A stretch of 64,000 bases of DNA, taken from Spongiivirga citrea. Lineage in GTDB: Bacteria; Bacteroidota; Bacteroidia; Flavobacteriales; Flavobacteriaceae. A program made the position numbers and the translations under genes. The notes below the pieces were generated by a model. That model worked only from the letters and a program-made list of their open reading frames with translations. It was not told where the DNA came from and made no database searches. The DNA lies in contig NZ_JAABOQ010000003.1 of assembly GCF_010671565.1 (NCBI RefSeq), positions 124,001 through 188,000 of the forward strand, read 5' to 3'. Every line of letters begins with the position of its first letter. Position 1 is the first letter of the stretch. Positions 24,754 through 28,670 of the stretch are shown here, in pieces.

Positions 24754-25497
24754 TTAACTTTTACCTTTTCTTATTACATTTTTAATTGAATCACATGGTT
24801 TTACATATGTTTCCTTAATATACTGCGTCATTTCCTTTAACGTTTTTCCATTTGTAGGATGCTTTCCCGGATATGTAAATGTAGTCACCTTGTTATCTGA
24901 TTTATCATACCACAAAACCAGCCTATCATTTCTAATAATGGTAGTAGTATCACATAATGGGACTTGCTTAAAATTTTCTAACATTACTGGATTAAATTTC
25001 ACTTCATTGTCTAGTCCAGAACATCGAATCTTTTCATAGTGATCATCCACCCAAATCATACAGTTTTTCTTATAATACTTTGAAATGAAAAAGATCAAAA
25101 AGACAGAAAGTAAAAAACTAAAAAACCAACTTATTGTTAACTTTCTTTTGCATCTTTTTTTTACCTCTTCAAATTCTCTCTTCACCTTTTCAAACTCACT
25201 TTCATTTCTCTCCACAAAATCCTTAAAATCTTTGTATTTCAAATACCTACTCAAAATATCCAAAGTTTTGTCGTATGGTTTCGTCCTTCTAGATGTACTG
25301 TTAGCTATATGTTGATTAAAGTAACGATTAAAAGTCTCCTTGGTTATTCTATCTCCAAATTGTTTCTCTATTGTATCAGACAAATACTCAGATAATCCAT
25401 TTCCAGTATTTTTTTTAGAATCTTTCTCTGCTTTTTTAAATATTTCTTCAATTAATAAAATAATTCTTTTTCCTCTTTCGGTTTTTACCCAGCTCAT
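24754..25497 (-). CDS. Membrane-anchored protein with N-terminal HTH-like region
   Basis: The 247-residue protein has a soluble N-terminal part (1-95) with FGDRITKETFNRYFNQHI and KTLDILSRYLKYKDFKDFV, a pattern seen at the N-terminus of many unassigned Bacteroidota proteins. A charged coiled-coil stretch (98-118), one membrane helix (about 121-139) and a C-terminal outer domain of about 105 residues with two Cys (145, 158) follow. The layout, inside helix-turn-helix-like and outside sensor-like, recalls one-component membrane regulators, but DNA binding is unproven. It is divergent from the structured leader at 25679. Confidence 0.55.
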   Translation of the reverse strand: MSWVKTERGKRIILLIEEIFKKAEKDSKKNTGNGLSEYLSDTIEKQFGDRITKETFNRYFNQHIANSTSRRTKPYDKTLDILSRYLKYKDFKDFVERNESEFEKVKREFEEVKKRCKRKLTISWFFSFLLSVFLIFFISKYYKKNCMIWVDDHYEKIRCSGLDNEVKFNPVMLENFKQVPLCDTTTIIRNDRLVLWYDKSDNKVTTFTYPGKHPTNGKTLKEMTQYIKETYVKPCDSIKNVIRKGKS

Positions 25498-25678
25498 TTT
25501 AGGTTAGTTAAAGTGTTGTTTTTCATTGTGATATATAGAAAAATAATTCTTGTCGAATACTTTTCCAAAACATGTCGATAAGATGTCTAACATCTACTTC
25601 TAAATCTGCCGTTAATTCGCTTTCGAACAGTTCAAGTAACGCTTTACTAACATAACAAAAGCAATAGATCTGTTCATG

Positions 25679-25844
25679 TGGAAATCCGTAATACGGCTAG
25701 TTATTAGCCAAATGGGAAGAAGCTATTAGCTACCGTATTACACTTTCCATTCTTCCCAAAAACGCAGACGTACGCTGCCATTTAGCGGGTTGCTGAAAAC
25801 CCTAGGAATATCTGAGTCATGGACCCGGACAGCAACCCTTTTTT
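25679..25844 (+). ncRNA. Unassigned structured RNA / structured 5' leader
   Basis: The 370-bp gap 25498-25866 has no gene but strong predicted structure. A long imperfect hairpin pairs TGGAAA (25679-25684) with TTTCCA (25744-25749), GTAATACGG (25688-25696) with CCGTATTAC (25733-25741), and TAGTTATTAGC with GCTATTAGCTA inside. Its loop segment TGGGAAGAA (25713-25721) is fully complementary to TTCTTCCCA (25750-25758) just after the stem, which would make a 9-bp pseudoknot. Then GGGTTGCTG (25787-25795) pairs with CAGCAACCC (25830-25838), followed by six T (25839-25844): a terminator form. GGGTT can instead pair with AACCC (25798-25802). No known RNA family was recognised. The ATG of the lipoprotein gene lies 22 bp after the T-run. 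Confidence 0.6.
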
Positions 25845-25866
25845 CAAATTTTTAAAACAAATAATC

Positions 25867-26028
25867 ATGAAAAAAGTGTTCCTGGCAGTAATTGCCATCG
25901 TATTTAATATGTTATTATTTTCTTGCAATCCTGATAGTGTTGCTGAAACAACTGATTTGTATGAAAATCAAACAGCAACCGGAGGAGAAGAAGGACATGG
26001 TGAAGAGGAAGAAGAAGAAAACCCTTAG
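25867..26028 (+). CDS. 53-residue acidic lipoprotein
   Basis: With the start at 25867 the product begins MKKVFLAVIAIVFNMLLFSC, a lipoprotein signal with Cys20. The mature part is about 33 residues and ends in a Gly/Glu-rich tail with one His (GGEEGHGEEEEEENP). An in-frame ATG at 25819 lies inside the predicted terminator stem and would spoil the signal, so it was not chosen. I do not recognise a family. The gene lies between a structured leader and an intrinsic terminator, so it is a separate transcription unit upstream of the TPR kinase. Confidence 0.7.
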   Translation: MKKVFLAVIAIVFNMLLFSCNPDSVAETTDLYENQTATGGEEGHGEEEEEENP

Positions 26029-26047: not shown

Positions 26048-26076
26048 AAAAAGCCGCAGTAATGTGGCTTTTTCTT
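26048..26076 (+). terminator. Terminator after the acidic lipoprotein gene
   Basis: GCCGCA (26053-26058) and TGTGGC (26063-26068) form a short stem with one G-U pair and a 4-nt loop, framed by A-runs and T-runs. It ends about 12 bp before the kinase start codon. Confidence 0.75.
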
Positions 26077-26087
26077 ATTTTAGGAAT

Positions 26088-27992
26088 ATGATTATAAGAA
26101 GATTATCGCTTTCCAATATTAAATATTTTCTATTCCTTTTTATTTCCTATTGTATTAGTTGTGATTCTAGCGAAAGAAAAGTCAATGTAACTGACTTTAA
26201 TTCTGTTCCAGAGATATTAGAGGATAAAAGAAAAAGTTCTGAGGAAAAATTGACATTCATCAATCATGAACTAGAAAAAAGAAAACTTCAAAAAGACTCT
26301 TTCACATTATATCTGCTATCCAAAAAAATATTTCATCAGAACAAATTGAAAATGCATAGAAACTCAGTATTAACATGTGATACTATGATTTCTATTGCGA
26401 ATGAAACCAAGAACATTAAATATCTAGCAGAAGCATTTTATCGCAAAGGCTCCACATATAGAGTTCTAAATAACAATTTAGAAGCTTATCTTAATTTTCA
26501 AGAATCCACCAAAAACTATCAAAAACTAAGCGATAACCAAAGAGCTGGTAAAAGGTTTGTTGATATGGCGATTTTACAGGAAAAACTTGGTGATTATTTG
26601 GGCTCCGAATCAAGTGCAGTTAATGCACTAAACTATCTCGATTTAGTAGTGAATAAAAAATACGGTTATAAGGCGTACAACGCCATAGCAATAAGTCAAA
26701 AAAAGAGAACATTGTTCGACGATGCTATTAAATCATATAAACAGGCACTGTCTACCTCAAGCAACAGAATTGATTCGGCAAGGGTTCTGATAAATATGGC
26801 AAATACTTACAGCGCAAAAAAGGACTATCAAGCATCTATTCAAATCCTAACATCTGTTGAAACACCAATTAATAATGCTAAGATTAAAGCCCGCTTAATA
26901 GATAATCTTGCCTTTACCCAATGGCGATTCAACCCGACTTATAATCCTACAGACGAATATAAAAAAGCTTTAGAAATTCGAGAAAATAACAACTTAACAT
27001 ATGATTTACAAGCAAGTTATTCGCACTTGTCTGATTATTATAGAACTAAAGACACCGCAAAAGCTATTGATTTTTCCGAACGCTATTTAAGAACTGCCAA
27101 ACAGCAAAATAGTACTGAAGATGTTCTTTTAGCATTACAAAAGTTAATTGCATTATCCAACCCTACAGTATCCAAAAATTATGGGGTGGAGTATGTTAGA
27201 TTAAGTGATAGTTTGAATAAAGTAAAAGAGGTTGCCAAAAATCAGTTCGCTAAAGTTAAATATGAAGTTGATAAAAAAGAAAATGAAAATCAACTACTGA
27301 TAACGGAAAATCTAAAAAAGGAAAAGACAATACTATTTTATTTAGCATTATTACTTTCTCTAATTTTTGGGGCTGCCTTTTTATTCCTCTATTTAAAATC
27401 AAAACACAGAAAAGAAAAACTACTTGCTGCCTACATTACAGAAACCCGAATTTCTAAAAAGGTTCATGACGAGATTGCTAACGATATGTTCAACGTCATG
27501 ACACAACTTGAAAATGAACAAACCAATCCCAAAGTGATTGATGAATTAGAAGATATTTATCATCGTACTAGAGATATTTCTAAAGAAAATACTAACATTC
27601 ATATTGGAGAACACTATGGAAAAAACTTGACCAGCATGATCGGCAGTTATGGTCAAAGTGGAGTGAAAATTATCTTAAAAGGAATTGACACCATACAATG
27701 GAAGCAACTTTCGAATGAGAAAAAGGTGATACTATACCGAGTATTACAGGAGTTTATGACCAACATGAGAAAACACAGCAATGCTAAGTGGGTCACATTG
27801 AGTTTTACAAAATCTTCTAAAAAGTTAACAGTGTTATATGCCGATCAAGGAGTCGGCATTAGTAATGGTAAATTGATTTTGGGAAATGGTTTACAAAATG
27901 TGGAAAACCGTATTTTATCCGTCAATGGAACACTTACTTTTGATACTGAAAATGAAAATGGCTTTAATGCCCACATTCAAATTCCTTATTAA
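26088..27992 (+). CDS. TPR-containing histidine kinase (HisKA_3 type)
   Basis: The chosen ATG at 26088 gives 634 residues; an earlier in-frame start lies inside the terminator of the previous gene. The N-terminus is hydrophobic and ends FISYCISCDSS, a possible lipobox. Residues about 40-390 form TPR-like helical repeats (for example AFYRKGSTYRVLNNNLEAYL), followed by one membrane helix (about 414-436). The kinase part has KKVHDEIANDM with His460 and a HATPase domain with LYRVLQEFMTNMRKHSNA and GNGLQNVENRI. Output goes to the response regulator 12 bp downstream. The TPR part would face the periplasm and probably senses a protein or peptide. Confidence 0.9.
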   Translation: MIIRRLSLSNIKYFLFLFISYCISCDSSERKVNVTDFNSVPEILEDKRKSSEEKLTFINHELEKRKLQKDSFTLYLLSKKIFHQNKLKMHRNSVLTCDTMISIANETKNIKYLAEAFYRKGSTYRVLNNNLEAYLNFQESTKNYQKLSDNQRAGKRFVDMAILQEKLGDYLGSESSAVNALNYLDLVVNKKYGYKAYNAIAISQKKRTLFDDAIKSYKQALSTSSNRIDSARVLINMANTYSAKKDYQASIQILTSVETPINNAKIKARLIDNLAFTQWRFNPTYNPTDEYKKALEIRENNNLTYDLQASYSHLSDYYRTKDTAKAIDFSERYLRTAKQQNSTEDVLLALQKLIALSNPTVSKNYGVEYVRLSDSLNKVKEVAKNQFAKVKYEVDKKENENQLLITENLKKEKTILFYLALLLSLIFGAAFLFLYLKSKHRKEKLLAAYITETRISKKVHDEIANDMFNVMTQLENEQTNPKVIDELEDIYHRTRDISKENTNIHIGEHYGKNLTSMIGSYGQSGVKIILKGIDTIQWKQLSNEKKVILYRVLQEFMTNMRKHSNAKWVTLSFTKSSKKLTVLYADQGVGISNGKLILGNGLQNVENRILSVNGTLTFDTENENGFNAHIQIPY

Positions 27993-28004: not shown

Positions 28005-28670
28005 ATGTTTAAAAAAATTCTGGTCGCCGAGGATATTGAAAGTATTAATCAAGGTGTCCATTCTATTCTTGAAAGACTTCAGGTTCAACATATTTCTCAC
28101 GCACAATATTGTGATGACGCCTTATTAAGAATAAAGCGTGCTATTTATGACAAAAACCCTTTCGAATTATTGATCTGTGACCTTTCTTTTAAAAAAGATC
28201 ATAGAAATGTGACGCTTTCCTCAGGACAAGAATTAATAGCCCTTTTAAAAAAGGAACAACCCAACTTAAAAATAATAGTATTTACCATTGAGGACCATCC
28301 ACAAATTGCGAGTACATTAATTAATGATTGCGAGGTTGAAGGTTATGTTTTAAAAAATCGAAAAGGACTTGCTGAATTAGAAGAAGCTATTAAAAAAGTA
28401 GCACAAAATAAATCATATATATCTCCTCAACTAGCGACTACTCTAAAAAGAAATAATCTAGTCGTATTGCCCGAATACGAAATACAACTTCTCACTCATT
28501 TAGCCAACGGGCTCACTCAAGATCAAATAGAGCTACACTTTAAAAAACAGGGCATCACACCTAACAGTCGCAGTGCCATTGAAAAACGACTAAAAGACCT
28601 ACGCGACGATTTTAATGCACAAACTACAGTGCACTTAGTTACCATAGTAAAAGACTTACAACTTATTTAA
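28005..28670 (+). CDS. Response regulator with divergent C-terminal HTH
   Basis: The 221-residue protein starts 12 bp after its kinase. The receiver domain shows ILVAEDIESI and the phospho-acceptor Asp59 in LLICDLSFKKD, with a switch Lys in GYVLKNRKG. The C-terminal 60 residues hold a LuxR/sigma-70 region 4-like helix set (LLTHLANGLTQDQIELHFKK, then SRSAIEKRLKDLRDDF). This C-terminus is more divergent than a normal NarL/FixJ domain. The genes on both sides of the pair carry the shared word GGAAATCCGTAA within inverted repeats, a candidate operator. Confidence 0.88.
   Translation: MFKKILVAEDIESINQGVHSILERLQVQHISHAQYCDDALLRIKRAIYDKNPFELLICDLSFKKDHRNVTLSSGQELIALLKKEQPNLKIIVFTIEDHPQIASTLINDCEVEGYVLKNRKGLAELEEAIKKVAQNKSYISPQLATTLKRNNLVVLPEYEIQLLTHLANGLTQDQIELHFKKQGITPNSRSAIEKRLKDLRDDFNAQTTVHLVTIVKDLQLI

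Follow-up and report, generated by a model that had tools for sequence, protein, structure and literature searches.

A pseudoknotted RNA ahead of a tiny lipoprotein gene in a two-component signalling locus of Flavobacteriaceae

Genes, promoter and terminator of the locus

The window, that is, the whole stretch of 64,000 nucleotides analysed here, comes from Spongiivirga citrea (NCBI RefSeq assembly GCF_010671565.1, contig NZ_JAABOQ010000003.1, positions 124,001 to 188,000). On its plus strand, a tiny acidic lipoprotein gene (25867–26028), identified from its open reading frame and its homologues, encodes 53 aa with the lipobox FSC and is of the SC..S.AET..LY...ATEGDDG type. According to the domain matches, it is followed on the same strand by the genes for a TPR-containing membrane histidine kinase with a UhpB/LiaS-like ATPase domain (26088–27992) and a NarL/RcsB-like response regulator (28005–28670). 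A divergent gene on the minus strand (24754–25497), likewise identified from its open reading frame and homologues, encodes 247 aa with one predicted membrane span, and its product has no match in Pfam or NCBIfam. The 53-aa protein matches the PG1828 family lipoprotein model (NF050142) over its N-terminal 30 residues with 15.8 bits (E 0.017), below the cut-off of 50 bits. A preliminary description of the window had placed a new cis-regulatory RNA at 25679–25844, just before the lipoprotein gene. That stretch does lie inside an RNA, but the true feature is larger: based on covariation and context, the whole structured leader RNA extends on the plus strand from the predicted transcription start to the lipoprotein ATG (about 25625–25866, roughly 240 bases). 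The outer helix, the palindromes, the promoter box and the tandem operator-like repeats presented below had all been missed.

The flavobacterial −7 promoter box has the consensus TAnnTTTG / TAnnTTGY (PMC9723704), and a likely variant of it, TAATTCGC, is located at 25613–25620 on the plus strand. In the homologous loci, the box TTTACTTTGT and its variants are found ahead of the outer helix. From the position of the box, transcription would start at about 25625, which coincides with the 5' end of the outer helix. Farther upstream, four tandem 11-bp units (TTGTCGAATAC, TTTTCCAAAAC, ATGTCGATAAG and ATGTCTAACAT) occupy 25550–25593 on the plus strand. Upstream of the promoters of the loci, a 4-mer is repeated 11 nt away at 8.7% of positions and 22 nt away at 5.3%, compared with 0.2–2.2% for the other offsets; the 11-bp repeats are probably response-regulator sites. 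The repeat unit differs between groups (TGTCnA, GGAAT, TTTCC) and the 11-bp period is constant, which suggests that operator and regulator co-evolve.

An intrinsic terminator was identified by terminator scan after the lipoprotein gene (26048–26073, plus strand), and 46 of 47 loci have a strong terminator-like hairpin with a T-run 3' of the lipoprotein gene. Since the terminator follows the lipoprotein gene, the leader, the lipoprotein gene and the terminator constitute a predicted transcript unit of ~450 nt, and the kinase would need terminator read-through or another promoter. At least 19 of the 47 loci have the kinase start codon within the 5' arm of the terminator, and therefore the kinase signal peptide (TSFLFF) is encoded there by the terminator stem and the T-tract. 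Loci of this configuration (AGAGGAATGAAA...TTTCATTCCTCTTTTTTT) include L009, L257–L259, L269–L277 and others.

Homologous loci and their distribution

A search at the DNA level across 99 related genomes yielded a single clear partial homologue, L009. There, too, a tiny lipoprotein gene and a TPR kinase lie 3' of the RNA, and the upstream gene is a relative of the divergent one. The full RNA was recovered in Leptobacterium flavescens (L052/L039) by a pattern search based on the closing stem. The exact pattern GTTGCTGAAAAC...CAGCAAC is present in at least 117 stretches across GTDB, and among the listed matches inspected the sole true homologue is again that of Leptobacterium flavescens. With the kinase protein as the query, loci were found in 144 of 397 family genomes, and for the kinase loci with a lipoprotein gene, most of the upstream regions contain the same RNA. 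In 26 of 29 kinase loci, the gene after the kinase encodes a NarL/RcsB-like response regulator. In a set of 70 kinase loci, no convincing RNA was seen where the small lipoprotein is absent; six further loci of the set have a related lipoprotein gene preceded by other leaders, with no recognisable copy of the RNA. These six loci (L202, L210, L215, L216, L218 and L221) carry ATEGDDEK-type acidic lipoproteins before TPR kinases. In L202, two acidic lipoprotein genes are arranged in tandem, and in L202, L218 and L221 a perfect palindrome (of the GAGAGGCCTCTC or GAGGGCCCTC type) is located near the lipoprotein start codon.

A covariance model of the long hairpin only (13 sequences, 81 positions and 22 pairs, with the pseudoknot omitted) was searched against the 397 Flavobacteriaceae genomes. 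It matched 53 genomes at E≤0.1, generally with a single copy in each, and 43 of the matches were strong (E<0.004); the RNA is common to dozens of related genera. The proposed placement before a tiny lipoprotein gene holds for all 43 strong matches: the next gene on the same strand is each time one for a lipoprotein (about 47–66 codons), at a narrow distance, 82–113 nt 3' of the pseudoknot. After it comes the TPR histidine kinase in nearly all of these loci, as far as the fetched DNA extends. A homologue of the divergent gene (~230–266 aa, single-span) is present in 42 of 48 RNA loci. The matches weaker than E<0.004 are mixed, several with the lipoprotein gene and at least one (L275) without it. 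An enlarged model, R2, was run on a sample of 295 genomes from across the class and added one match, L278, in another family of the same order, where a small PPPP-tailed protein, the kinase and the divergent gene accompany the RNA. Within this sampling, the RNA family hardly extends beyond Flavobacteriaceae and near relatives, it being noted that the strict filters used on many genomes lose weak family members.

As the preliminary description had anticipated, the RNA corresponds to no known family in Rfam 15, where no match at the gathering threshold, including Flavo-1 and 6S-flavo, was found in the window or in 20 homologous loci; permissive filters gave only chance matches in the window. Flavo-1 (RF01705) and 6S-flavo (RF01685) are likewise structured RNAs of Bacteroidetes, and in F. 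psychrophilum several 5' leaders coincide with the former (PMC9723704), but both differ from the present RNA in context and anatomy. The tRNA/tmRNA scan found none. By DNA similarity, the RNA is a single copy in its own genome, with no copy in plasmids or phages and no mobile association. No paper on the locus or the RNA was found among the open-access papers searched, and the family is apparently undescribed, although it may have been discovered earlier under another name.

Structure of the leader RNA

All the nested blocks from which a long hairpin had been proposed were found in the window. They are TGGAAA (25679–25684) with TTTCCA (25744–25749), GTAATACGG (25688–25696) with CCGTATTAC (25733–25741), and TAGTTATTAGC (25698–25708) with GCTATTAGCTA (25722–25732), the last pair having one internal mismatch, and together they form P3, a long interrupted hairpin on the plus strand (25679–25749). 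The loop segment TGGGAAGAA (25713–25721) and its downstream complement TTCTTCCCA (25750–25758) are also present, and the pseudoknot is composed of TGGGAAGA (25713–25720) and TCTTCCCA (25751–25758), on the same strand. The final stem, GGGTTGCTG (25787–25795) with CAGCAACCC (25830–25838), is followed by T6 at 25839–25844. The folding energy of the 166-nt stretch is −51.0 kcal/mol compared with −35.0 ± 3.8 for 200 dinucleotide shuffles (z −4.2), none of which was as good (0/200).

For 45 distinct sequences, 88.1% of the cells pair, and both sides have changed in 26 of the 30 pairs. Covariation scored 0.411, whereas shuffling the partners gave 0.215 ± 0.009 and sliding them 0.05–0.122, in an alignment that was fitted to the hairpin and so favours its pairs. 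The pseudoknot is the cleaner test because it was left out of the covariance model, and it is 95.5% paired, with several compensated versions. Outside the training set, a complete 7-bp Watson-Crick pseudoknot helix is found in 26 of 33 loci, whereas 9.3 would be expected when strands are swapped between loci, and none of 10,000 such shuffles was as high; note that some seed sequences were chosen by a pattern requiring the pseudoknot, and that a few of the 33 loci also belong to an earlier pattern-picked collection, so that independence is imperfect. The compensated forms are GGGAAGU/ACUUCCC, GAGAAGU/ACUUCUC, AAGAAGU/ACUUCUU, AGGAAGU/ACUUCCU and GGAAAGU/ACUUUCC, the last of which was found by the model only, and the window has its own form, GGGAAGA/UCUUCCC. 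With compensatory changes beyond both the shuffled and the slid controls, the hairpin and the pseudoknot, both of which had been claimed for the window, are on comparative grounds real RNA structure.

The outer helix P1 (25625–25675, plus strand) pairs GAACAG (25625–25630) with CTGTTC (25670–25675), and its arms covary: their energy is −10.2 kcal/mol with their own partners and −6.5 ± 0.3 when swapped between loci. RNAalifold on MAFFT alignments, in which lengths were misaligned, gave no structure for the P1 region. A hairpin inside P1, P2, is plausible by eye, and the arm-swap test gave it no support. Between P2 and the 3' arm of P1, a 6-nt perfect palindrome is present in 34 of 48 loci, compared with 13.7 expected. 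It varies among TGTACA, TCTAGA, AGCGCT, GTATAC, CTATAG and TGCGCA (for example, in L230, L241 and L254), and is not clear in the window. Such changing 6-base palindromes are compatible with self-association of the RNA.

Farther 3' on the plus strand is a short hairpin, P5 (25764–25778), with the stem GCAG/CTGC and the palindromic loop CGTACG (25769–25774). In the P5 region, palindromes of at least 8 nt occur in 31 of 48 loci (5.4 expected), and 24 of 48 have one of 10 nt (1.3 expected), the cores being of several unrelated kinds. These counts, like those for P1, are inflated by relatedness, and more weight should be given to how many different palindromic cores there are. In a few loci, GNRA-like loops replace the palindrome. 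The closing stem GGGTTGCTG/CAGCAACCC with its inner stem (P6/P7, 25787–25838, plus strand) passed the arm-swap test, with −13.1 kcal/mol for its own arms and −10.3 ± 0.4 for swapped ones. Thus hairpin, pseudoknot, outer helix and closing stem are each supported by covariation. An A/U-rich stretch separates the closing stem from the lipoprotein start codon. The start region has a moderate predicted accessibility (0.57 unpaired), and no conserved masking of the lipoprotein start codon was found among the loci examined.

A possible extra helix, GGAC/GUCC, is located just 5' of the lipoprotein start in L241, L246, L251, L253, L260 and L268, the version in L260 being GGGC/GCCC. It would compete with the closing stem; the window has no such helix. 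The minimum-energy fold of the whole transcript pairs the 3' strand of the pseudoknot with the GAAGAAGG codons of the lipoprotein tail, which was rejected as an artefact of pseudoknot-free folding.

Possible roles of the RNA

What role could this RNA play? Of the earlier proposal of a new cis-regulatory RNA, the structured RNA and its strict linkage to the lipoprotein gene are borne out, and action in cis is the best reading of them. Our preferred reading, with a probability of about 0.62, is a structured 5' leader that acts in cis on a short lipoprotein message, transcribed under two-component control as far as the terminator. Transcription would probably be driven by the response regulator of the locus itself from the four 11-bp repeats. 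The leader would fold into the outer helix, the long hairpin with its apical-loop pseudoknot, the short hairpin and the closing stem, followed by the A/U-rich stretch. Because the linkage is strict and the spacing narrow, this fold would most likely set the translation or stability of the lipoprotein message in cis, while read-through of the terminator would feed the kinase. The leader may have two states, the pseudoknot and the fully paired hairpin, since only a few bases link the base of the hairpin to the 3' strand of the pseudoknot. From simple geometry, formation of the pseudoknot should require that the hairpin bends sharply at its internal loop or that its lower part opens, and it is sterically doubtful that the full P3 and the pseudoknot are formed simultaneously. 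Possible partners of the leader are a protein, a metabolite, or a second copy of the RNA bound through the palindromes.

In staphylococci, the RNAIII/agr system includes a short transcript under two-component control, encoded next to the kinase and regulator that belong to it; this transcript is both a structured RNA and the source of a tiny exported product, and RNAIII is divergent from the agrBDCA operon. The unit described here is also short and predicted to be under two-component control, and its product is a tiny exported protein. By analogy, the ~450-nt transcript could be a dual-function RNA, acting in trans, perhaps as a homodimer joined at its palindromes, and encoding the small exported product. 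Consistent with this, a discrete unit of structured RNA, small lipoprotein ORF and terminator adjoins, as read from the sequence, a two-component system with operator-like repeats, and the RNA has palindromic elements with changing cores and is usually present in one copy per genome. However, no strong match lacks the lipoprotein gene, and the narrow distance to the start codon is more simply explained by action in cis, which makes a trans-acting RNA unlikely. In addition, the two RNAs have no sequence relation, the present one precedes its ORF and does not surround it, and the kinase here lies downstream of the terminator.

In that it may self-associate through its palindromic loops, the RNA resembles the homo-oligomeric bacterial RNAs GOLLD, ROOL and OLE (PMC12286853) and palindrome-mediated RNA dimers (PMC7357161). 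The present RNA is much smaller than GOLLD, ROOL and OLE and is tied to one gene, and its putative dimerisation is suggested by the palindromes. A decidedly speculative extension is that a self-associating pseudoknotted RNA is the regulated output of the two-component locus, with the lipoprotein or the RNA dimer feeding back on the TPR kinase and the loop being closed by read-through of the terminator lying across the kinase start codon, i.e., an RNAIII-like circuit of separate origin in Bacteroidota.

A metabolite-binding riboswitch, in which the pseudoknot would control lipoprotein translation, is quite improbable. The large conserved leader, with a pseudoknot, nested helices and possibly mutually exclusive states, is in line with such a role, and pseudoknot riboswitches and leader RNAs as a class likewise have a long hairpin and a loop-to-3' pseudoknot near the start codon. 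Nevertheless, the RNA is found in a single narrow context, the lipoprotein gene and the two-component system, rather than with metabolic genes. Its helices vary freely, and within the leader there is neither a conserved expression platform that masks the start nor a conserved terminator. In the alignment, the strands of the pseudoknot are conserved, and there was no sign of a compact unpaired core of high conservation.

The preliminary description had also suggested a switchable terminator, that is, a transcription attenuator ending at 25844. Such a reading could be drawn from the window, where T6 comes after the closing stem and AACCC is a possible alternative partner for GGGTT in the 5' arm of that stem, but neither part is conserved in the relatives. 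The T-run is peculiar to the genome of the window, most homologues having a AUUGUUUAAUUUUUAAA-like sequence in its place, and the alternative pairing is lost, as in Leptobacterium flavescens (L229/L052), which has GGGTTGCTGAAAACAAAA at that site. Moreover, the terminator scan of the window did not list the closing-stem site, and the conserved terminator is the one 3' of the lipoprotein gene. A conserved leader terminator with an alternative anti-terminator was thus not found; the switch was rejected, and attenuation at this site is very improbable. Scarcely tenable is a DNA-level element, such as protein-binding palindromes or a mobile repeat, for although the palindromes could bind a protein in DNA, the nested helices and the pseudoknot covary in exact register, and the element is a single copy in its own genome with none in plasmids or phages.

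Few regulatory RNAs have been described in this group of bacteria, where translation initiation is unusual (non-Shine-Dalgarno). The leader proposed here to act in cis adds to them an RNA family that is apparently undescribed, covaries strongly and is strictly tied to one gene. The RNA also exposes a conserved, unnamed signalling locus that comprises a divergent membrane protein, operator-like repeats, the RNA itself, a lipoprotein, a terminator, a TPR kinase and a response regulator.
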